Positions 1,465 to 43,824 of a DNA stretch of 64,000 nt are shown here, one piece after another; positions within the stretch are counted from its first letter, which is position 1, and each line of letters opens with the position of its first letter. Made by a program: the position numbers and the translations under genes. Origin of the DNA: Crossaster papposus (lineage: Eukaryota; Echinodermata; Asteroidea; Velatida; Solasteridae); assembly GCA_037893245.1 (NCBI GenBank), contig JBAIAA010000409.1, forward strand, positions 2,657,001 through 2,721,000. Reading direction: 5' to 3'. Under the pieces are notes generated by a model. It saw only the letters and a list, made by a program, of their open reading frames with translations, did not search any database and had not been told where the DNA came from.

Positions 1465-4400
1465 GTAAGTCAATGGTTTTGTGTCGCCTATTAACCCTAA
1501 CTCCCAACTTTCAATTTTTCTTACACATAACCTGAATCCTGCAAAATCCTGCAATTCCAAAGTGTTAAAACTTCATGTAACCTGCAGAATCCTCCAATAT
1601 TTATTACTGGTGACCACTGCCCAAATCCTGCAAAATTTTGCAGTGGGTTTACCATTGAGCTATCAAACATGGAACAAACAGCTGCTAAGTGCCCTATTAC
1701 AACAAGGGTCTGCACACATGACTCTTGCCAACGTTTCACCTTGACTGAAGCTCTTCCAAGTGACCTCGATCCTGCAAAATCCTGCCATTTACAAAGAGGA
1801 TTTTCTTCCTGTACTATAACCTAACCCCGGTAACCTAACGCTTACCTGAATGATTAAGAACAAATTTTAACAAAGAAACTGCCGTTTGAGCATGTAATGT
1901 TTGACTGTGTGAGTTGACAAGAGGCTGGCTGACTTGTGGTTGACGTGTGGTTGACGTGTGGTTGACGTGTGATTGACGTGTGATTGACGTGTGGTTGACG
2001 TGTGGTTGACGTGTGGTTGACGTGTGGGTGACTTGATACCAACTTGTGGTGACTTGATACTAACTTGTGGTTGACTTGATACCAACTTGTGATTGACTTG
2101 ATACCAACTTGTGATTGACTTGATACCAACTTGTGATTGACTTGATACCAACTTGTGATTGACTTGATACCAACTTGTGATTGACTTGATACCAACTTGT
2201 GATTGACTTGATACCAACTTGTGATTGACTTGTGATTGACTTGTGATTGACTTGTGGTGACCTGTGACCGACTTGTGGTAACCTGTGACCGACTTGTGGT
2301 GACTTGATACCGACTTGTGGTGACTTGTGACCGACTTGTGGTGACTTGTGACCGACTTGTGGTGACTTGTGACCGACTTGTGGTGACTTGTGACCGACTT
2401 GTGGTGACTTGTGACCGACTTGTGGTGACTTGTGACCGACTTGTGGTGACTTGTGACCGACTTGTGGTGACTTGTGACCGACTTGTGGTGACTTGTGACC
2501 GACTTGTGGTGACTTGTGACCGACTTGTGGTGACTTGTGACCGACTTGTGACCGACTTGTGGTGACTTGTGACCGACTTGTGGTGACTTGTGACCGACTC
2601 GATTACAACTTTGGAACTGACACAGCTTTTTTTTGCAAACAGAATTCTTCAGTGTCTGACGGCAAGTTGAACCTGCATGGCAGTAAGGACAAGGAGAGGT
2701 TGGAGGTCATCTTCTCAGAGCTGACGGACTGCAAGAACGACTCCCAGCAGAGGAGTTGGGCCTTGCACGAAGACGAGGCGGTCATCAGCGAGTACTTGGA
2801 GGAACTTGCGACAATCTTGGTAAGCCAGATCATGCATGTGTCTTGGGGCCATTTTAGATTGTGTGCGGTTTACATACGGTAACAGCCATGCAGCTAAATT
2901 ATTAGAAAAATGTTTTCAATGGGACAGCTTACGCGGTGCGAGTACACTAAGAAAGGGCATGGCCTTTAGCAGAATGTCATTTTAACAACAGATTTCCAAA
3001 ATCACGTCCAAATGCTCCCAAATTGCTTCAGCCGTTTTGAATCTGGAGAAAACTTTGCGTGTATGTACGTCCTCCGGCGCGAACTGGTTAATACACATCA
3101 TTTGAAATGATCAATCACGGTGTACCTAGCTGCAAAGCTACATGTCATCTACAAATATCTCCTACTTTCAGAGTGATGCCAACCCTGATCTGTGCAAAGC
3201 TGTCCTACAGAGAGACAACTATGAAGTCATCAACTCGCTGGTATTGTACTACCAAATGGTAAGAACAATGTGTTTTAGGGATGTGATGGTACATTATAAT
3301 TTAGTACTAGATTATTCTACGTGCAACAATGACCAGTGATGGAGGTCTTGAGAACTTGTCTCTGTCTTGAGAACTTGTCTCTGTCTTGATGAGACCATCT
3401 TGAAACCTCTTTTTTTATGTCTTGGTCTCTGTCTTGTCCTAACAAACTATTCTACATTGTAAATCCGCCAAAATGAATCTTTTTTTGTCGCGCACACAAA
3501 TGTTATGGTTAATGGCTGCTCAATATGGAGGTATCCTGAATTCGATCAGCACTACTGCTAGGCTTGCCATCTTCAATCCATCAAAATTCTCCCGTTTTCA
3601 ATATGGAGGTATATCCTGAATCCGCCAACATTTTCCAAAACAGGGGTACGGATTTTGATGGAGGTTGGGGTTACATTTGGTAGTATACACCTTTTGCAAA
3701 CATAATGAAAAAAAGACTTAATTATTATCAAATACTTTAGATGAATGTAAGTGAATAACGGTCTCAAGCATCCTGTGAAATGACGGCACCTGATGTGATG
3801 AAGTGGAATTTTGTATCAATTTTAAACGATTGATTGCCGACCGGCAATCGTTGTAAATACCTGACTATTTTAAAACACTGCCCCAATTTATTGAATTTGT
3901 CTAAAGGAAGTCGAGGAACCAGACTGCAAAAACAGCACTTTTTGTCTTGTTTTTCCTAGCTTCTATGAACACAAAACTTTTAACAGGCTAGCGTCACAAC
4001 ATTTACTATAAAATATGAATCTAAGGCCATAACCCACTCATTTTTGAAAATTACAGCAAAAGCAAATGGTGTACACTACCTTTAATGCTTGAAAACCCTC
4101 ATTTCAACTTCTGCCCAGTTCTGTCTCATTTTGCCAGAAGGCCTAAAAAAACCTGCTGTACCTCTTCCTCCCCAGGAGCTCCGCACCTCCCTACGTCTGC
4201 TCCTCCTCAAGGCCTTCGGTGTCCTGTGCGGTCTGGAGTCAGTCCTGCTCTCCCAGCTGCTCTGCTCGGTCCTCCTGGTGGAAATGGCCCGTGACATGCA
4301 GACGGACACCCAGTGTCTACAGAAGGTGTGCTTTTCCGCCCTAGTGGCCACTATGCTGTTGTCGTCCGGCCAGCCGCTGCCTTATACGCACTACGGTACG

Positions 4401-31295: not shown

Positions 31296-31606
31296 ATACG
31301 CAACTCATAACGCCTTTACGTATAGCTTAGTTTAACATGTTTAAAAAGCATGCCTATTTGCTTTGTTAACAAAAGAAAAACAGTTGTGAGTTTACCTAAA
31401 TTTCTAGAAGCTAAGTTTTACTTTTACTAAGTTTCGGAGGGAAACACTTTTGATGAAGGACGCACGCAATGTATTATCTTGAGACATAGGTTTTGTCTAA
31501 CAAAGGAAGGAGATGTAGTGTCTGAGATATATCCATGAGCGCATGTAATATGCTAATGTTGACCCCAGTTTGTTGACCTTATACACTGTAACTATTATAT
31601 GATACA
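31296..31606. other. Spacer before the Helitron array
   Basis: AT-rich, no gene recognised. It ends with the host T (A on the + strand at 31606) that abuts the 3' end of the first Helitron. Confidence 0.6.
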
Positions 31607-33161
31607 CTAGCGGGATGCTGCGCTTCGCGCGGCACCCGCTAGCTGGGTGGAATCGCAACTTATAGATTCACCTTGTTGACGTCCCCAAAACATAATGGAT
31701 TGTATGACAAACAAACCGCGAAACTTAGGGGGAGTAGAGTACCAGATAGGTGTGTGTATAAACTTGCTTGTTTGTCATTCCATGATGCTTTCTTTAAATA
31801 GACCATGGGCCACTACATACAGTGCAAAGTCATGCCGACAGGCAGCCTCCGGGATGTACGCCAATAATATTTCCATAGATGCAAAAAAGAGCCGTTTAGT
31901 GAAAAAAAATTAACAGTCGCGAATGCATTTAAATCTATAGTTGGGAAATGGCGAAAATATGTAGTTACCCGACCATGCATGACTTTCCAGATTTTAGTAT
32001 TTAAATTGTAATACCAAATTAGGTTAAAAGGGTATTGACAATTTTATAGGAATTTTATAGGATCATTATGTCCTTGGTCGTTAAATCATTTAGTTATAAA
32101 ATAGAATAGGCCTTTGGAAAATTATGTAGCTCTCGCAGGGTGGGTTTATATTAGGACGGCCCTTTTTTATGTGGTTCTCATTACCGATCGACCGTATTTT
32201 AGGGCTCCCGACCCAATAATTGTTTAATTTTATTTTTGTAATTTACTGGAACCCCATTCACCCAAACAAATTGCAAATAAACCCAAAATGGATAGTAAAT
32301 TAATTTTACAAATTTGCTCCGTGCATCGCTCCCCGAATTCAGTGATTTATCCAACGTCCGCAAAGCCAGGTTCACATGCACGATCTACACGGAATTTGTT
32401 TGGGGAGATGTCATTTTCTGCCATTTTCGTTTGAAAATAACACAATAAAACGCATGGGGTTCACAGACATATTTTTTCAAAAATTCAGTATATCACTGTG
32501 ACATCCTTTTTTAACGTATCCATGGAAAAAAAAATGTTGGTTCGAAGCAGGATTTTCCACAATTTATCGATTATTATTGCCCTTTTTAGGGGAGGTATTT
32601 GTTGACGTCGGTTGGGTATTTGCCCAGCACGAGTAAATGAGACACTTTGCGGTAAAAATGAAAATTGAGATTTTGATTTCATCATTTAAAGCTAAACAAG
32701 CTTTAAAGGATGAAATCAAAATCAAAATCTCAATCTCCACGTGCATCAACGGTACGTCAACGTAATTTTTTTTCGACTGCTTTTTTAATTTTCAATACAA
32801 TTGTTGTCATTGGATGATACAAATTAAGGTAAATAACAACCGTTTTTTAACTACAAAAGAAAATATGTTAAGATTGGATGCCAAAAACTCGTTATTTTTC
32901 GCATGAAAAAAGTCCCCCCCCCTATTTTGAGAATGGACGTTACCACAGCGTTTCGAAATCGCAGCCTCGAAGGGCCCCCACCCACCCCCTCCGCCTCCCC
33001 CCCTCGACGACCCCCCCCCCCCCCACCTGGAGTCGCCCGACCAAAAGCGCAGCCTCTTTCCAACATGGCGCCGCCCAGACGCCAAGATGGCGCGGCCCTG
33101 TGTTCCAAGATGGCGGCGCCCACGGGCGAGATGGCGCATTTTTCCTTCTTTATGGTATAGA
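31607..33161 (-). mobile_element. Non-autonomous Helitron, unit H0
   Basis: Read on the - strand, it starts TCTATACCATAAAG at 33161 and ends at 31607 with a GC-rich hairpin (GGGTGCCGCGCGAAGCGC and its partner) closing on CTAG, followed by T. The 5' 130 bases and 3' 140 bases match units H1 and H2; the middle is different and AT-rich, with a hairpin at about 32664-32742 (GAGATTTTGATTTCATC and its complement). No Rep/helicase ORF is present, so it is non-autonomous. Confidence 0.8.
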
Positions 33162-33310
33162 CTAGCAGGATGCCGCGCTTCGCGCGGCACCTGCTAGCTG
33201 GGTGAAATCGTAACTTAATATAGATACATCTTGTTGACGTCTTAAAAACATAATGGATTGTATGACAAACAAATCGCGAAACTTAGCGAGTAGAGTACCA
33301 GCTAGAAAGT

Positions 33311-33432
33311 ATTTCGAGCGCACGAAATTATTTCGAGTTCACGAACAGATATTCTTGGAGCGCAAGAAGTCATTTCGTGGCCACGACAACATTTCGAGCT
33401 CACGAAATAAGTTATTTTGAGTGCACGAAATA
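33311..33432. repeat. Cluster of six short palindromes in H1
   Basis: Imperfect palindromes of the form TTTCG-AGCGCA-CGAAA recur every 20-24 bases: ATTTCGAGCGCACGAAAT, TTTCGAGTTCACGAA, TTCTTGGAGCGCAAGAA, TTTCGTGGCCACGA, ATTTCGAGCTCACGAAAT and TTTTGAGTGCACGAAA. H2 has seven, one of them an extra TTTCGTGGCCACGAAAA. Confidence 0.85.
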
Positions 33433-34119
33433 AAATACTCAAATTATTTCGTAACGGTGATTTTTATTCGTCATATGTCCCTTTAGGGGCTCCGTAGAAG
33501 ACCATCGACTCTGAATAACAAACAATCTTTGTAAAAATACTTCTTGACTTCCGAACTAATAATACTCAATAGGCAGTCCATCTTCGCTTGCATGCTGCCT
33601 GCGTCTCGTGATTTTTTAACAGGAATCGTACGGGAAACAATACGAACCACTTCGGGATTTCTGTGTTTACATCATCGTGAAAATCCTGATTAAAAAACCC
33701 AACAGGCCGGCCATCTGACAGTGCGCCCTCAACTGACGTAATGCAGTCACGTTTCTAAATTTGCATATTCATATCCACCATCGCCATACAATTTCGCGAC
33801 ATTTTTGCGCGATCAAAGTTGAAATTGAGGCAATAGCGATATGTTTCGGAGTGTTTTGAGACAGATAATGTTGTAATATTTAAGTATCGACGATGTGAAG
33901 CAAAGACATTTGCCCCAAAAGCAACACGAAAGGAATAAATCATTTGTTAACGTTCCCAACCTGTGACTGAAACGTGGTAGACGCGCACGAATTCGAACCC
34001 GAAAACGAAGCCGGAGCTCAACTGGTACTATGTTTACTCCGCAGTAAACCAAGGTAACACCGTGGTCAAGTCGGAAGTTCTTCTACACCTTGTTTCCCTT
34101 GCAAATTTAAGGGTAACCC

Positions 34120-35748
34120 ATGAGTCTGGACCGGAAGAAAACCGTCACTCTGCACCTCTGCGAGGGGACAGCTCCTGGACAGATCTTCGAGGCCATTCAG
34201 AAAGTGGCCGGACGCAATGAGGTGGAATGCGTGCAGCAGCTGGGTCCAACCAAGTGGGCTGTTACTACTACGAGCATCATCACTGCCAACAAATTCATAC
34301 GGAGCGAGATGCAGGTGAACAAGAAGCCGGTGACGATCACATCAGCAGGCGGATCTTTCTCCTTCATCAACGTACGCAATGCGCCCGATGAAATGGACGA
34401 CGGGGTTGTTACGGCCAAGCTGTCTAACTACGGACGAGTCATCTCAAGCCGCCGGGGCCGTTGGCAAACTGTGCAAGAATGGAAGAACGGCACACGCCAC
34501 TACCGGGTGGAGCTGAAAACACCAATCCCCAGTTTTTTACGCATCGGCGGGTACCAGGTGCAAGTAAGCTACGAAGGGCAAATTCAGACCTGCCGAGCCT
34601 GCGGAGGAGAAGGCCACTTCGCGGCGGATTGCCCCAACATACCATGCTTCAACTGCGAACGAACCGGCCATCGAGCTGCCAACTGCCCCGAGCCTCGGCT
34701 ATGCAAGATATGCGGGGAACAGGGCCACTTTGCCCGCTCCTGCCCGCGTTCATGGAAGAATATGACACGGCAAAACGAAGAAACCACCGAGGCACGAGCC
34801 CAGCACACTCATCCATCCACCATGGCGTTCCCGCCGCCCACCAAGGGAGTACACAGCCCCAGAGACGACATCCCGGCCATCATCCCCGAAAACCCGCCAC
34901 AAAAGACAACCGAGAAGACACCCGCCAAGAAGACATCCGCCGAGAGAGCCCCTGGCTTCTGGGACCAGGCGGTGAGTAGCGGACGTATTCACCGTTCAGC
35001 TACCAACAAGGCCCCACACAGCAAGAGCAGCTCTCCCTCCAACCCGGTGCTTTTGAACACCCCCCGTCAATCCGCCAAGCCATCCCCACGTCAGGCCGCC
35101 AAGTCACCCCCACGTCAGGCCGCCAAGTCACCCCCACGTCAAGCCGCCAAGTCACCTCCACGTCAAGCCGCCAAGTCACCCCCACGTCAAGCCGCCAAGT
35201 CACCCCCCCGTCAAGCCGCCAAATCACCCCCCCGTCAAGCCGCCAAGTCTCCCCTCTGTCAAGCCGCCAAGTCACCCCGCCGTCAAGCCGTCGAGTCGCC
35301 CCCCATTAAGCCACCAAGTCAAGGCGCGACACGGCAGAAAACTGGGTCAGCCCCGTCCAGCCCCGCAACCGCCGCCCCGGCAGTGGACTACGAGGAAAAA
35401 TTGATTTTTACCCCCGAGGAGGCGTCTAAGTTGCGCACGCGAGAGTGGGCACAATCGGTGGTGACATCTAACCCCTTCGACGGGCTGGAGGACGAGTTGG
35501 CCCGGGAAGCGGCCGAGGTGTTCGACGGCGAGCCTGGGGCCCCGGACTTGGATTCGAGCTCGGATTCGGGCTCGGATTCGGGCTCGGGTTCGGACTCGGA
35601 CTCGGACTCGGACTCGGACTCGGACTCCAACGCGTCAACTTTCTCTGTCGCCAGCATGGTCAGCGCCGTAAGTAGTAAGCGGGGGCACTCCCCAGACGAA
35701 TATGACAGAAAATGGAAAATCAAAGGAGGAAAAATAAGAAAGAACTGA
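34120..35748 (+). CDS. Tx1 LINE ORF1: nucleic-acid-binding protein with three CCHC knuckles
   Basis: 542 residues, open throughout, starting at ATG in a fair context (AACCCATGAG). Residues about 1-145 form a folded N-terminal part resembling ORF1 of L1/Tx1 LINEs. Three zinc knuckles follow at about 157-208 (CRACGGEGHFAADC, CFNCERTGHRAANC, CKICGEQGHFARSC). Then comes a basic Pro/Ser-rich region with about nine copies of the octapeptide SPPRQAAK (24-base DNA repeat, 35085-35300) and an acidic Asp/Ser/Gly run (about residues 483-505). The protein is expected to coat the LINE RNA. The repeat and Asp-Ser tract look expandable and are unusual additions. Confidence 0.88.
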   Translation: MSLDRKKTVTLHLCEGTAPGQIFEAIQKVAGRNEVECVQQLGPTKWAVTTTSIITANKFIRSEMQVNKKPVTITSAGGSFSFINVRNAPDEMDDGVVTAKLSNYGRVISSRRGRWQTVQEWKNGTRHYRVELKTPIPSFLRIGGYQVQVSYEGQIQTCRACGGEGHFAADCPNIPCFNCERTGHRAANCPEPRLCKICGEQGHFARSCPRSWKNMTRQNEETTEARAQHTHPSTMAFPPPTKGVHSPRDDIPAIIPENPPQKTTEKTPAKKTSAERAPGFWDQAVSSGRIHRSATNKAPHSKSSSPSNPVLLNTPRQSAKPSPRQAAKSPPRQAAKSPPRQAAKSPPRQAAKSPPRQAAKSPPRQAAKSPPRQAAKSPLCQAAKSPRRQAVESPPIKPPSQGATRQKTGSAPSSPATAAPAVDYEEKLIFTPEEASKLRTREWAQSVVTSNPFDGLEDELAREAAEVFDGEPGAPDLDSSSDSGSDSGSGSDSDSDSDSDSDSNASTFSVASMVSAVSSKRGHSPDEYDRKWKIKGGKIRKN

Positions 35749-35838
35749 ACTGTAGGTTGTTTTCTTTTGGATTGATTTTCTTGAACTCTATTGTTTATGG
35801 ACTGCTTCAATGTTGCTTGTTTTGTGCTTGCCTTTTGT

Positions 35839-38800
35839 ATGGTTAATTTTAAAGTTGCGTCTTTAAATGTATGTGGTTTGAGGAAGCAGGCAAAGCGCCG
35901 TCAGGTCTTCGGTTTCTGCAACAGTCAGAATATTGATGTTCTGCTGTTGCAGGAAACTCACGTCTCTGGCTTTTCCGAAGCCAGGGCGTGGGCCCGTGAA
36001 TTTGACGGCGTTGGGTACTGGTCCTTTGGGACAACATCGAGTTGTGGGACGGCCATTTTGCTGTCTTCACGCCACTCGTGGTGCCCCACGGACTATTTGC
36101 GTGACAATAGAGGTAGGCTGCTTTCTCTCACGGTTTCAATGCCCAACACAAAAACAAAAATTCGTATTGTTAACGTTTATGGTCCAAATGATCCGACCGA
36201 CAGACGTAAGTTCTTTGAAAGTGAATTACGTAACCACACACGGGGTATGAGACATGTTATTTGGGGGGGCGACTTTAATTGCATTGAAAATTTGGTTCTT
36301 GATTCTAAAAGGGGGGTTACACAACACACTACGCGGGGGAATAAGGAAATCCAGAAAATCGTGAGAGAGAGCAGCCTCCTCGATGTATGGCGGGTTCAGA
36401 ACCCAGTAGAAAAAAGATATACTTGGCACTCCAAAAATAACCAAATTGCCTCTAGAATCGACCGCCTATACATTTCACGCGAATTGTCCGAGGGTGCACG
36501 TAGCGCAATCACTGCATGCCCCCTGTCTGACCACGATTTAATTTCTGTCGTTTTCACGAACCAAATCCAAAACGCTGGACGGGGTTTTTGGAAACTTAAT
36601 ACTTCTTTTCTGGGGAGGGATGATTTTAAACAAGCCGTTAGTTCAGAATGGAAAGATTGGGGTGCGCGAAAAGGGGATTTTGATAATTTAGTTGAGTGGT
36701 GGGACAGGGGAAAAATCCAACTAAAAAGTGCAGTGATTGTTTTTTCTGCTGGCGAAGCACGAAAACGTAGCTTTGAGCGTAAGGAACTCTTAAGAGAAAT
36801 CAATCTCCTGCAAAACAAAATTGATCACGGAGATCCTGCGTGCGTAGCCGATTTGCATAACTTAAAAACCCAATACAACACTCTGAATAATTCACATTTT
36901 TCTGTTCCCAACCCAGTGCCCTCTGCCGAAAAAAGTACTTTCCGGCCCAAGGAGCACGACTCGGACTTAAAACGCATGCAAGGCCTCCGTGATGGTTCAG
37001 GTCAACTGCACACGGAACCAAATCGTATGACCAACATTTGTAGGAATTTTTATAACGATTTGTATACAAAAACCGACACGGATGATAAAGAGATTGATTT
37101 TCTTAAGGGTTCTATTGACAGTTCACTGAGCCCTGACGAGCAATTGTTGCTCGAAGGGCCAGTGACTGTTAATGAGGTGAGGCGGGCTTTGTTCGATATG
37201 GCGGCGGGCAAGTCCCCGGGTTCGGACGGCTTGCCCGCTGAGTTTTACAAGACGTTCTTTAGTGATATGGGCCAAGATATTTGTGATATGGTGAATTGTG
37301 TCTTTCAAGAAGGTAGGCTTAGTCAAAGTCAAAGGTCGGGTCTGATTACATTGTTGTACAAGAACAAAGGAAGTCGTGAAGAGTTGGGTAATTGGCGGCC
37401 CATATCACTGCTGAACGTCGACTACAAAATCATTGCTAAAATTCTCGCCACCAGATTGCGGACCATTTTGCCTAGCATTGTTAATGAAGACCAGACTTGC
37501 TCCGTGGCGGGGAGAAGCATATCGGACAATGCTCACCTACTTCGCAACGTTCAGAGTTACGTAGATCAGAAAAATATGTGTGCTGTGTTTGTGTCGCTCG
37601 ACCAGCAAAAAGCGTTTGATAGAGTTGACTGGGGGTATCTTCAGCAGATCCTTGGGACCCTCGGCTTCGGTGAAAATTTTAGAAAATGGGTGGAAATTCT
37701 GTACACCGACATTGAAAGTAGTGTGATTTGTAATGGGCATATTTCTCGGCCTTTCTCGCTATCCCGAGGGGTTCGACAAGGCTGTCCGCTTTCGTCGTTA
37801 CTTTACATCCTTGCCCTCGAGCCACTCGGGTGTGCGATCAGGGCCGATCCCAAAATAAAGGGAGTTAAATTACCAGGGGGCACCGAAGCTAGGGTCTCGA
37901 TGTATGCTGATGATACCACCCTCATTCTAGCGGACGATAGGTCTATCGTCCGCAGCTTTGAGCTGGTCGAGAGATACGAGCGCGCATCGGGCGCTAAGCT
38001 CAACCAGCAGAAAACGAGTGGCGTGTTTCTTGGTCGATGGAAAAATCGACCAAATGGGCCGGTTGACATCTCTTGGGCGACTTCAGCTAAAATCATTGGG
38101 ATTTCTTTTGGTTATGGGAACATCCTAAACGATATGTGGGAAGATAAATTGAGAGAGCTGGAAAACTGTATTGGGGAATGGGAAGACTGTGGCTTTTCGA
38201 TTAAGGGGAGGGTTTCAGTAATAAATACTTTTGTGATTTCCAAAATTTGGTTCTTAGCTGAGGTCGCCCCGCCCCCCAAAAAGAAACTTAAAAAGATCAA
38301 CAAGTTGATTTTCGGTTTTGTTTGGGGGCACAAACCAGAGTATGTTGGCCGGGACACTATGTACCTCCCTCCATCCCAGGGAGGGATGGGGATGGTGGAC
38401 ATAGACAGCAAGATTGCCGCCATGCAGGGTGTTCATGTCGCCAGCATCTTATCAGGCAAACCCGGCAAGTGGCGGGTTCTCGCGCGCTACTGGTGCGGTC
38501 TGTCTCTACGTAGTGCAGACCCGTCATTGGCGCGTGAGAATCTGCCGCACTGCGACACACAGCCGGACTTTTATCGTTCCATTTTGTTTAATTTCCGTAA
38601 ACATCAAAGTTTAGTTCAAGACTGGCGACATATAAAACTCAAAGAACACCTTGCAACCATACTTCAGACCAAAGGATTGGTGCCGCGGGTACAACGCTCC
38701 CGCCCTGGTAAGGACTGGACTACGGCATGGTCACGCACGCTGTGTAGTAGCAAATTGTCTAATACTCAAACTTCGTTTAATTTCACAGTCGTGCACAACG

Positions 38801-39165
38801 TGCTGCCCACCGGTGACAGACTTCGTAAACGGTTCGGGTCAAATGACCCCGGTCTGTGTCCACATTGCGCTCGACTAGAGACGTTAGAACATGTTTTCGT
38901 CGAGTGTGGTGTGGTCAAGCCGGTGGGCAAATGGCTTGGTCACTACTTGGGCGGTCTGAACAACACGCGCGCGTACCCACCCGACACGGATACGCTAATT
39001 TTGTCTTTGTTTCCCAAACCAAGAACAAAAGCACTGGAACTTAAGACGGCACACAAATTAAGTATTTTTAGACGAACGATTTGGCTTGCAAGGAATGAAG
39101 CAAAATTTGATAAGAAAAATATTAATAGTCATGGTTTACTGTGCCGTCTAAAAAAGTACCTATAG
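35839..39165 (+). CDS. Tx1 LINE ORF2: AP endonuclease and reverse transcriptase
   Basis: The frame is open from 35791; the ATG at 35839 (MVNFKVASLNVCGL) fits family starts better. Endonuclease motifs: LNVCGL, LLLQETHV, NVYGPND, GGDFNCI, SRIDRLY and LSDHDLI (catalytic SDH). RT motifs: GKSPGSDGLPAEFYK, NWRPISLLNVDYKI, FVSLDQQKAFDRVDW, SRGVRQGCPLSS and MYADDTTLIL (catalytic box near 37902). A C-terminal zinc-type motif CPHCARLETLEHVFVEC follows near 38860. It totals about 1,108 residues, somewhat short for Tx1. The stretch around 36900-36980 (FSVPNPVPSAEKSTFRPKEH) fits the family poorly and may hold small compensating indels. Otherwise it looks capable of function. Confidence 0.9.
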   Translation: MVNFKVASLNVCGLRKQAKRRQVFGFCNSQNIDVLLLQETHVSGFSEARAWAREFDGVGYWSFGTTSSCGTAILLSSRHSWCPTDYLRDNRGRLLSLTVSMPNTKTKIRIVNVYGPNDPTDRRKFFESELRNHTRGMRHVIWGGDFNCIENLVLDSKRGVTQHTTRGNKEIQKIVRESSLLDVWRVQNPVEKRYTWHSKNNQIASRIDRLYISRELSEGARSAITACPLSDHDLISVVFTNQIQNAGRGFWKLNTSFLGRDDFKQAVSSEWKDWGARKGDFDNLVEWWDRGKIQLKSAVIVFSAGEARKRSFERKELLREINLLQNKIDHGDPACVADLHNLKTQYNTLNNSHFSVPNPVPSAEKSTFRPKEHDSDLKRMQGLRDGSGQLHTEPNRMTNICRNFYNDLYTKTDTDDKEIDFLKGSIDSSLSPDEQLLLEGPVTVNEVRRALFDMAAGKSPGSDGLPAEFYKTFFSDMGQDICDMVNCVFQEGRLSQSQRSGLITLLYKNKGSREELGNWRPISLLNVDYKIIAKILATRLRTILPSIVNEDQTCSVAGRSISDNAHLLRNVQSYVDQKNMCAVFVSLDQQKAFDRVDWGYLQQILGTLGFGENFRKWVEILYTDIESSVICNGHISRPFSLSRGVRQGCPLSSLLYILALEPLGCAIRADPKIKGVKLPGGTEARVSMYADDTTLILADDRSIVRSFELVERYERASGAKLNQQKTSGVFLGRWKNRPNGPVDISWATSAKIIGISFGYGNILNDMWEDKLRELENCIGEWEDCGFSIKGRVSVINTFVISKIWFLAEVAPPPKKKLKKINKLIFGFVWGHKPEYVGRDTMYLPPSQGGMGMVDIDSKIAAMQGVHVASILSGKPGKWRVLARYWCGLSLRSADPSLARENLPHCDTQPDFYRSILFNFRKHQSLVQDWRHIKLKEHLATILQTKGLVPRVQRSRPGKDWTTAWSRTLCSSKLSNTQTSFNFTVVHNVLPTGDRLRKRFGSNDPGLCPHCARLETLEHVFVECGVVKPVGKWLGHYLGGLNNTRAYPPDTDTLILSLFPKPRTKALELKTAHKLSIFRRTIWLARNEAKFDKKNINSHGLLCRLKKYL

Positions 39166-39960
39166 GTCCGTGTCGGGGCCTGTTTCCTCAGCCAAGGTTG
39201 TTTTGCAGTCCATCGTTTATTTTCAACTAATTTGAACAAATGAATACATATTGGTAGTCATCTTGTCAAACAAGCAAGTTATGGTGGTGGGTAATAACAG
39301 TTTTCCCATTATTTTGTTATAATAGACAAATCGATTTTTCAAATTTTAAAAAAGTGAGGAGTTCATGATTTAAAAGTTAGTAAAACGTATTGAAAACTAA
39401 GGCATTGAAAAGAAGTGTAACTTTTTAATTGTAAATTTGTTAATTGTATAATTGTATATTCTTCGATGTAGGTTTTTTTCGGAAGGAATAAACCATTTAA
39501 AGAAAGGAAGTATAAATCGGGGCACCAGCTCAAATAACACGTGACGGGGCCGCCCAATGGCGAATAACAAACTCGGCACCAACTCGGCCACCGCGCAAGC
39601 AAGGCGGATACAATCAATTTGCGAAGGCTTCGCGTAACGCATGTAGCCGCCGCTTAATCGCAAACAGCCAACAATTTGGCAACCGAGTTACGGTAGTACG
39701 ATTTCGGGAAGGCTTCGGCCCGAACTCCGGGCAAGGACAATGCAAAAATAACGCAATAGTTCACGCAAAAAGGCCCACAGACATCGACAGGCAATCGAAA
39801 AGCGATTACGCGTTTATCGGTAACGTCCGTTTCTTTTAAATCTCACTTCGGACGAATACGATTTTTTTTTAAATCTTATTCCCCGGGGGATTCCCCGTCG
39901 CGAACGATCCGGCACCCCGCCGCACCGACGCCGGCGGCACACACGCGCGGCGACGAGTCG

Positions 39961-40075
39961 CCCGACCAAAAGCCAACATGGCGCCAACCACGCGCCAAGA
40001 TGGCGCGGCCCTGTGTTCCAAGATGGCGCGGCCCTGCGTTCCAAGATGGCGGCGCCCAGGGACAAGATGGCGCAT
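39961..40075 (-). promoter_or_regulatory. Cluster of YY1-like boxes at Helitron 5' end (H1)
   Basis: On the - strand GCGCCATCTTG-type words recur four to five times within about 110 bases (on + as AAGATGGCG near 39997, 40020, 40043 and 40063, plus an ACATGGCG variant). AAGATGGCGGC is the YY1 consensus core, also used in the promoter of mammalian L1. The same cluster is in H2 (about 41466-41566) and H0 (about 33062-33137). A regulatory role is inferred, not shown. Confidence 0.5.
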
Positions 40076-40097
40076 TTGTCATCTTTTATAGTATAGA

Positions 40098-41592
40098 CTA
40101 GCAGGATGCCGCGCTTCGCGCGGCACCTGCTAGCTGGGTGAAATCGTAACTTATAGACACCTTGTTGACGTCTTAAAAACATAATGGATTGTATGACAAA
40201 CAAATCGCGAAACTTAGCGAGTAGAGTACCAGCTAGAAAGTATTTCGAGCGCACGAAATTATTTCGAGCCACGAACAGATATTCTTGGAGCGCAAGAAGT
40301 CATTTCGTGGCCACGAAAACATTTCGTGGCCACGACAACATTTCGAGCTCACGAAATAAGTTATTTTGAGTGCACGAAATAAAATACTCAAATTATTTCG
40401 TAACGGTGATTTTTATTCGTCATATGTCCCTTTAGGGGCTCCGTAGAAGACCATCGACTCTGAATAACAAACAATCTTTGTAAAAATACTTCTTGACTTC
40501 CGAACTAATAATACTCAATAGGCAGTCCATCTTCGCTTGCATGCTGCCTGCGTCTCGTGATTTTTTAACAGGAATCGTACGGGAAACAATACGAACCACT
40601 TCGGGATTTCTGATTTACATCCTCGTGAAAATCGTGATTAAAAAACCCAACAGGCCGGCCATCTGACAGTGCGCCCTCAACAGACGTAATGTAGTCACGT
40701 TTCTAAATTGCATATTCATATCCACCATCGCCATACAATTTCGCAACATTTTTGCACGATCAAAGTTGAAATTGAGGCAATAGCGACATGTTTCGGAGTG
40801 TTTTGAGACAGATAATGTTGTAATATTTAAGTATCGACAATGTGAAGCAAAGATATTTGCCCTAAAGGCAACACGAAAGGAATAAATCATTTTTTTAACG
40901 TTCCAAGCCTGTGACTGCAATGTGGTCGACGCGCACGAATTCGAACCCGAAAACGAAGCCGGAGCTCAACTGGTACTATGTTTACTCCGCAGTAAACCAA
41001 GGAAGTATAAATCGGGGCACCAGCTCAAATAACACGTGACGGGGCCGCCCAATGGCGAATAACAAACTCGGCACCAACTCGGCCACCGCGCAAGCAAGGC
41101 GGATACAATCAATTTGCGAAGGCTTCGCGTAACGCATGTAGCCGCCGCTTAATCGCAAACAGCCAACAATTCGGCAACCGAGTTACGGTAGTACGATTTC
41201 GGGAAGGCTTCGGCCCGAACTCCGGGCAAGGACAATGCAAAAATAACGCAATAGTTCACGCAAAAAGGCCCACAGACATCAACAGGCAATCGAAAAGCGA
41301 TTACGCGTTTATCGGTAACGTCCGTTTCTTTTAAATCTCACTTCGGACGAATACGATTTTTTTAAAAATCTTATTCCCCGGGGGATTCCCCGTCGCGAAC
41401 GATCCGGCACCCCGCCGCACCGACGCCGGCGGCACACACGAGCGGCGACGAGTCGCCCGACCAAAAGCCAAGATGGCGCCAACCACGCGCCAAGATGGCG
41501 CGGCCCTGTGTTCCAAGATGGCGCGGCCCTGCGTTCCAAGATGGCGGCGCCCAGGGACAAGATGGCGCATTTGTCATCTTTTGTAGTATAGA
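40098..41592 (-). mobile_element. Non-autonomous Helitron, unit H2 (uninterrupted)
   Basis: Read on the - strand it starts TCTATACTACAAAAGATGAC at 41592, preceded by host A, and ends CTAG at 40098 after a GC-rich hairpin, continuing into TC of H1. 1,495 bases. It gives the empty-site version of the Tx1 target at 41002/41003. No protein-coding gene inside; open frames on either strand follow the GC-rich 5' end and have no motif. Confidence 0.88.
40242..40380. repeat. Cluster of seven short palindromes in H2
   Basis: Same array as in H1 at 33311-33432 with one extra TTTCGTGGCCACGAAAA unit and one shortened unit (TTTCGAGCCACGAA). The difference in copy number shows the array is unstable between tandem units that are otherwise nearly identical. 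Confidence 0.85.
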
Positions 41593-43824
41593 TAGATGGA
41601 TACACGAGGCTTGCAATCATGGTTGTATACACTGGGACTGGTGTGGAGAACTGAGCACTAGAAAGGACTAGAAATACAGATTCAATTCGTGTCTGGTTTA
41701 ATCCGTTATGGAGTCACAAACACTTCAGGCACTACTCATCATTTCACAATGAGAAGATGCATGAGGTGGAAAAGATCCACCCAGAGCAGGAAAGAAACGA
41801 AGAGGGGGTTTTCCCAAGGAGGCATGGATAGGCGCGGGGCCTCAAGAGCCAGTGGAACCCACCGCGGAGACCAGAACCCCACCTCAGGCGATGACACCTA
41901 CACGCGAAAATGCAGCCAGAGATGAAGGTGATGTTGGGGTGCTGAGCCTATTTCCCTGCCCCATGTCTCCCCTGGTGGCCATCCCGTCCGTGGAGCATCC
42001 TCCACAAGTGGTGGCCGTCTCAAAGCCTATGTCAGGGAAGCCATTGGTTGCTAGCCATGGGTTGCTAGCCATGGCACCACCACCAAGTGCTTTACCGCCC
42101 ACATCCACAGCGTCATCCATGCCCGAACTGAGGGAGGACCCCGGTACAGTAGCTGAGTAGCCCCCATACCACAAGGTTAGACGCTCCGCCACCGTAAAGG
42201 TCTTCATCTGTACCCATATCCTTATGGAAGACCGCATCATTCGACGCACGGAGAAGACTGAGTGCTAGTATTATGAGTTTCGTCAAGAAAGAGGTTACAC
42301 AGGCCCAAGACTAGGTCAAGGTTAAGATTAAAGTGTTTATAGTTGTAATTATTAATGTAAAAGTCTAGCATTAGTTGTTATTAAGTAGTTATTAAACTGA
42401 TTTACGAATCATTGAACTTCCATTTGGAATATCCGCGCTAACTGTGAATTCATACTCGAAATTGTGTAAATGTTTTGATTGAACCAACATTATGCATTAT
42501 ACACCATTGTCACAGAGTGATATTTATTTTAGTTAAAATTACTCTAAAAATGTTAAACGCAAATTTATATTTATGTGGCCTAAATAATGATTTTCGTGAA
42601 ACCTACCTTTGTCGAAGTGGAGAAACAAAATTGTATTTTCTTGGAGCTGCCACGCCCAAGCATTTTTCAAACCATTGGACCATTTTAGAATGGTGTGATC
42701 TACGTTAGTTGATATGCCATTGGTTAGCACTTAATAATTTGCATAGATTTGAATAATAACTATTTGTTTTGTAATTTGAAGGTACATACCAACATTTTTC
42801 AACCGTTGTATGCGGTATTGCTATGATGTTTCTTTGGGGTTTACAAGTAAACGAATTTAGAATGCTAGAGGCATATGTCATTGAGATTCCGAGGAGAGAG
42901 CAGCAGCTAGCCTCGATGATGACTTGTATTTTACTTAGCTATTGAGAGCTTAACATTGTACAAAACTTGAGGCGTGATGAGTTACTGAGAACTCGCTGAA
43001 GTTACTGTGCGCCGATACCCGTGGTACTAGTAAGCCAGGAAACATCCATATCCTGCAAGTTGTATAATATGTATAATATGACTTATTTATGGCCTTTTTG
43101 TATAAATCTATCATGTAATAATCGTAAGATTTAGGAAACCGAAAAAAACTAATAGTCTTTATATTTTGGGTAAGGTGTTGTTAAAATGGTAAAACAAGTA
43201 TACTGGATGTAACCTCTAGTAGCATTTAATTTGGTTAAAATTCCAGGGTTCAAGGGTTGAGCTTCCACCTGACCAGTAGACGGTATGGCCGGACCGCAGC
43301 GGCGGACCTGAGGACCTGACAGCGTTACTGGCCTAAGGGACTGATGAGCCATCAATACTACCGAGCCACATTGAGTTTTGATTTTGATTGTATAATTTCT
43401 GTCAATAATTAGCAATGTGAATTGAATATTGGATATAGAAAGACGTCCTGATTGTTAAATGGAATCCTTGTAAATAAATTAAAATATTGTACAAACCGCC
43501 TTGACTAAAACAACTTTACTGAGTGTCGGTGTTAAAAAGGACTACACCGAAGGTCAATCTCTCGGGTGGAGCTACCCCGGAGATGTGACAACCATTTAAC
43601 AAATTCTACCGTTTACTCATTATCCTAATTTTAAACATGTACAATTAGGCTATATAACGTGTTGATAATTGAGGCAGAACAGATTTTCTTGCAAAGTATA
43701 TTCGTGCATATTTAATAAACCTCTACTTATTTTTGGTAATCCTGGTTAGACTTGCATAAGTCGCTTGTCGCTGTTATTATTTATGCTGATTGGATTATGG
43801 TCAGTCTAGCATAGCTCGGGCATG
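41593..43824. other. Region between Helitrons and LTR, no clear gene
   Basis: An open + strand stretch at about 41852-42160 is Pro/Thr/Ser-rich (EPTAETRTPPQAMTPTRENA). It could be the tail of a Gypsy pol product or chance; no domain is visible. GGTTGCTAGCCATGG is repeated in tandem near 42046-42075. The rest is AT-rich with no recognisable element. Confidence 0.4.

Follow-up and report, generated by a model that had tools for sequence, protein, structure and literature searches.

Helitron arrays in the sea star Crossaster papposus that probably grow by insertion into their own 5' ends

Background

In canonical Helitrons a hairpin lies some 10 bases before the 3' end, and elements of the Helraiser type start with TC and end with CTAG. 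Helentrons (Helitron2) insert between T and T and have no CTRR end. Tandem Helitrons are already known. PMC5876387 cites examples from plants and bats; a study of fungi lists bat, Drosophila, rice and maize as bearing tandem insertions and mentions tandem Helitrons of plant centromeres (PMC5148889); and Du et al. (2008) characterized a pair of unlike units in maize for which a target made of the host A plus a T was one of two options, and also reported the work of Pritham and Feschotte on Myotis (PMC2267711). Helitrons are also said to prefer insertion near other Helitrons (PMC12477314, citing Yang and Bennetzen). Both read-through and insertion models have been proposed for tandem Helitrons, and neither the maize nor the fungal report decides between overrun and repeated insertion (PMC2267711, PMC5148889); for FoHeli of Fusarium and a tandem of three copies in Metarhizium the choice is between 5'-end insertion and rolling circle (PMC5148889).

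The family described here was found in a window (the whole stretch of DNA analysed) of 64,000 nucleotides from the sea star Crossaster papposus. It resembles canonical Helitrons of the HeliBat1/Helraiser type in its 3' hairpin, its insertion between A and T and its Rep plus helicase protein of around 1800 aa (PMC5876387), but the outer stem of its hairpin includes CTAG and, by count, more than half of its 5' ends follow the 3' end of another copy. Tandem Helitrons known from bats, maize and plant centromeres have the same exact CTAG/TC head-to-tail junctions (the slash marks the joint; PMC2267711, PMC5148889), but in the present family the junctions run into the hundreds and, together with base-exact self-insertions, permit counting. 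The FoHeli and Metarhizium tandems pose the same choice of mechanism, but they are Helitron2/Helentron-like, with other termini and another target (PMC5148889). None of the titles and abstract openings searched in the open literature reports such counts of tandem Helitrons; what is new is the extent of the arrays and the base-exact evidence for self-insertion.

Results

Three head-to-tail units in the window

Three units that begin with TC and end with CTAG stand head to tail on the minus strand: H2, a non-autonomous Helitron at the 5' head of the array (40098–41592, 1495 bp); H1, a non-autonomous Helitron with a LINE inside it (33162–40097, 6936 bp); and H0, a Helitron of another subfamily (31607–33161, 1555 bp). 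The H2/H1 junction (40098/40097) reads GCATCCTGCTAG/TCTATACTATAA and the H1/H0 junction (33162/33161) reads GCATCCTGCTAG/TCTATACCATAA, with zero spare bases at either. The outer host bases on the same strand are A at 41593, where the flank before TC is ATCTA, and T at 31606. The initial annotation had proposed this head-to-tail order with exact junctions, as well as the A/T target, and both are borne out.

Once the LINE was set aside by script, H1 and H2 agreed at 1448 of 1475 aligned bases (98.2%), and their heads have an identity of 0.988 over 600 bases. The near-identity noted by the annotation therefore holds for the Helitron part, but the LINE in H1 had been overlooked. H0 had been said to keep only the two ends around a different middle, which is correct: both of its ends align with H2 over 143 bp, with an identity of 76.9% on the 5' side and 89.5% on the 3' side, the alignment found no match between these ends, and the heads of H1 and H0 have an identity of 0.900 over just 120 aligned bases. 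No match to the middle of H0 was found among the genome loci fetched for comparison. The 3' hairpins lie on the minus strand at 40098–40133 (H2, closing on CTAG), 33162–33197 (H1) and 31607–31642 (H0). A hairpin abutting CTAG without a gap had been described as atypical; the outer stem, CTAGCAGG/CCTGCTAG, does take in CTAG, but the inner hairpin, GCCGCGC-GAA-GCGCGGC, stops 6 bases short of it; the whole 3' end forms a single long hairpin. The gapless description holds only in part, and the oddity was probably overstated.

The length of H1 results from a LINE of 5449 bp (34055–39503, plus strand, antisense to H1) that lies between two copies of CCTT (34051–34054 and 39504–39507). Its plus-strand frames, measured from stop to stop, carry CCHC knuckles (34117–35748) and an endonuclease with a reverse transcriptase (35785–39165). 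The genome has 15 instances of the Helitron/LINE junction of 39503/39504, 13 of them exact and two with one mismatch. The junction lies at offset 581 of the unit in the window and 557 on contig C22, and also at 557 on C17, provided that the unit there begins directly after the listed 3' end. BLAST of the fetched Helitron loci did not find the LINE. Either the LINE is aimed at one base of the Helitron, or the Helitron carries the LINE along.

The joined flanks of the array (161 bases) were matched across the joint at 18 of 21 places among the matches listed, at 78–84% and over query bases 1–156, 1–160 or 1–161; the other three are the two flanks of the window itself and one single-flank match. 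They match at 18 other places because the flanks belong to a dispersed repeat. Of these empty-site matches, 16 are 1–4 bases shorter than the query and two are 7 longer, the position of the joint being known from the alignment spans and not to the base. The comparison supports the view that the A and T of the window were once neighbours. The host repeat around the array occurs twice, around 4.78 kb apart, on each of four other contigs (C162, C713, C866 and C984), a spacing that would fit the two ends of an LTR element.

Copies and arrays across the genome

Besides the claims above, the annotation had proposed a genome search for copies with the same ends, a count of tandem versus single copies and a search for a Rep/helicase partner. 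Both strands of the genome (1.02 Gb in 1841 contigs) contain 1205 matches (567 + 638) to a 23-base 5' end and 1438 (672 + 766) to a 29-base 3' end, each with up to two mismatches, so that either end is present at more than 1000 places, and 698 matches (316 + 382) to a 30-base tandem-junction pattern with up to three mismatches. The same three patterns read backward gave no genome match, which rules out that the ends and junctions matched by chance. Tandem copies are in excess: 698 junctions per 1205 5' ends correspond to a tandem share of around 58%, an approximate value because the mismatch limits differ. Among 30 exact 5' ends that were read, 20 stand behind CTAG, nine behind A (two of these sharing one flank) and one behind G. 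Among the matches listed, 83 of 100 exact 3' ends fall into 23 same-strand chains of two to eleven, built by distance (gaps of up to 7 kb) and not from individual junctions. At the fetched loci there are 20 distinct non-tandem heads, 17 behind A (TCTA precedes four heads) and three not behind A. Non-tandem heads at loci L020, L022, L030, L037, L090 and L110 often stand behind TCTA, (TCTA)n or TCTATAC-like bases, which resemble the element start. Odd junctions were seen at L062, L065, L084, L092 and L093: in CTAG/TATACTATAAAA the neighbour is without TC only, and elsewhere short stubs, e.g. TCTATACTATAA or TCTTATA, lie between CTAG and the next TC. Some of these positions do not correspond to an A/T site in the known 5' end.

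A Helitron_like_N search of the genome gave 150 scored hits from 273 candidates. The partner sought is represented by a 10,938-bp unit at C259:1494232–1505169, the single full autonomous unit read, which has the same ends as the window units and is tandem on both sides, lying directly after the CTAG of one copy and directly before the TC of another. Its open frame of 1847 aa includes Helitron_like_N (E 1.9e-62) and PIF1 (6e-73) domains, detected in two pieces of the frame. Another Helitron_like_N hit sits within a nested block on C17, described below. A second Helitron group, larger but with weaker scores (E values of around 1e-35 to 1e-33), accounts for 136 of the 150 scored hits and has open frames that reach 3470 aa.

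The family thus has the canonical Helitron termini (5' TC and 3' CTRR, here TCTATAC... and ...CTAG), a Rep and Pif1-like helicase partner with the same ends, and insertion at A/T without target duplication, since removal of the block from TCTA[block]TACT restores an intact 5' end. The three window units belong to one large family of canonical Helitrons. Genome copies, the same-ended partner and insertions with a base-resolved empty site all uphold the identity, target and order first proposed for them. Membership of Helentron/Helitron2 is ruled out by the A/T flanks and the CTAG end.

Blocks lying within 5' ends

Some blocks lie 4 bp inside the 5' end of a unit. Stub junctions, CTAG/TCTA/TCTATAC, number 19 in the genome, and remainder junctions, CTAG/TACTATAAAAG, number 31 with up to three mismatches, one of which (on C92, with three mismatches) is doubtful, while eight share one cluster on C549; the backward control was zero for both. 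At seven places the two types combine as TCTA, a block and then TACTATAAAAG, so that the block lies within the 5' end of its neighbour at A/T, without duplication. Seven of the 19 stubs accordingly have a same-strand remainder within 15 kb downstream, compared with five of 100 ordinary junctions, and the stub–remainder distances are 1458 bp (C68), 1460 bp (C164), 1457 bp (C730), 3460 bp (C275), 3548 bp (C271), 4479 bp (C474) and 14,789 bp (C17). On contigs up to C332, for which controls are listed, stubs exceed controls within 15 kb (5/13 versus 5/100; Fisher P 0.0017), 5 kb (4/13 versus 3/100; P 0.003) and 2 kb (2/13 versus 1/100; P 0.035); the 15-kb limit was chosen with the C17 pair already in view, and among the five controls that match, several share arrays with a stub–remainder pair. 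Within 15 kb, 12 of the 19 stub-type and 24 of the 31 remainder-type junctions are unpaired.

For the blocks at C68:824463–825920, C164:3070965–3069506 and C730:13728–12272, each the length of one unit, the reading covered the two edges. The two parts of the interrupted sequence join up to the 5' end carried by about a thousand copies, with nothing duplicated or lost. On C68 and C164 the copy inside starts with GATGTTAAATTCGC and the one that it interrupts with GATGACAAATGCGC, which are the starts of different subfamilies; on C730 the inner and outer copies start alike. The block on C271 includes a pair of starts whose 5' variants differ, separated by a tandem junction; most simply, a second unit would have inserted immediately before the first. 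Random insertion at A/T, computed from the AT-dinucleotide frequency of the window, predicts 0.004 matches at a single such site for 1205 ends. A search for units set into the following A/T of the 5' end, TCTATACTA/TAAAAG, gave no genome matches with up to two mismatches.

Relationships between array neighbours

We gathered 101 heads and dropped one that was short; the first 700 bases of the remaining 100, which form 29 arrays and 51 successive pairs, were compared. Nearly all are exact 5' ends (the three of the window not all so), and 56 had been fetched for lying in clusters. Two pairs with fewer than 300 aligned bases were left out, namely H1/H0 of the window and one C271 pair (0.992 over 257). 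Of the 49 successive pairs kept, 14 reach at least 99% identity, compared with 160 of the 4488 pairs formed between contigs; 'successive' here means among listed ends, and an unlisted unit or short stub may intervene in some pairs. The remaining 35 pairs, below 99%, have a median of 0.966, as do unrelated pairs (0.966; KS P 0.986). Eighteen pairs outside the window are spaced by up to 2.2 kb, eight of them at least 99% identical and ten below. Near-identical and unrelated-like neighbours coexist, and therefore two processes appear to be at work. A trend towards younger units at the head was not significant along the arrays (25 pairs in favour, 16 contrary and 45 tied; P 0.21), nor between first and last units (nine in favour and six contrary of 27; P 0.22).

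Discussion

We put at about three in four the probability that the arrays grow by insertion of units into the 5' ends of their own family, helped by local duplication. The Rep/Pif1-helicase of longer, same-ended copies, a partner that is presumably active, would move the units, each copy inserting between A and T. The host A and the leading T of the element then form a new A/T site on the 5' side; the 3' side, CTAG/T, offers none. New copies would land directly before the head unit and leave base-exact CTAG/TC junctions without overrun, in the window probably in the order H0, then H1, then H2. Copies would also land at TCTA/TACT, 4 bp inside the 5' end. The near-identical neighbours would come from another process, either the insertion of concatemers or unequal crossing-over.

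The initial annotation had offered read-through and repeated insertion side by side, and an exact CTAG/TC junction alone cannot separate them. Rolling-circle read-through, in which the terminator is passed or a circle recopied and a dimer or concatemer inserted at once, would account for exact junctions and, like unequal crossing-over, is a likely source of near-identical neighbours, eight of whose 14 pairs are spaced by up to 2.2 kb; the related Helraiser had head-to-tail circles as donors (PMC5876387). As the main cause it is unlikely, although compatible with self-insertion: 35 of the 49 pairs resemble unrelated ones, H1 and H0 are of different subfamilies, and a unit placed 4 bp inside the 5' end of another is not expected from it. 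Near-identical neighbours could equally come from unequal crossing-over or other local duplication that enlarges an array after one or a few insertions. On C55 (1234454–1245731) the 3'-end spacings of 1732 and 2173 bp alternate as a higher-order repeat of 3905–3906 bp, and on C549 (106209–131886) there are eight CTAG/TACT junctions, with five of the seven spacings at 3201–3202 bp, although the unit behind each of these junctions has no TC start. Such duplication is also compatible with self-insertion, but yields neither unlike neighbours nor the first junction, and that it is the main cause seems to us a somewhat doubtful, if reasonable, alternative.

The junctions shifted by 4 bp might instead reflect imprecise 5' nicking at nearby A/T sites, without nesting. 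Two stub-type junctions lie 1737 bp from each other on the same strand of C275, and some shifted junctions may indeed have arisen by nicking 4 bp off, because most have no partner within 15 kb. As a general explanation this is improbable: stub and remainder lie one unit apart on C68, C164 and C730, and on C68 and C164 the 5' variants inside and outside differ. Insertion into a 5' end is accordingly the part of the earlier proposal that the sequence supports, at the A/T site 4 bp inside. Exact junctions between unlike units were probably made by the same self-insertion, which, judged from the sequences, best explains unlike neighbours such as H1/H0.

Conclusion

This family has enough junctions for rolling-circle overrun to be told from repeated insertion by sequence. 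It is an even bet whether the 5' end of the family, in which TCTA/TACT resembles host TCTA/T, is its own preferred target, so that arrays would grow in one direction like a ratchet, and whether the LINE may specialise on one Helitron base. The arrays show a simple route from a transposon to satellite-like arrays.
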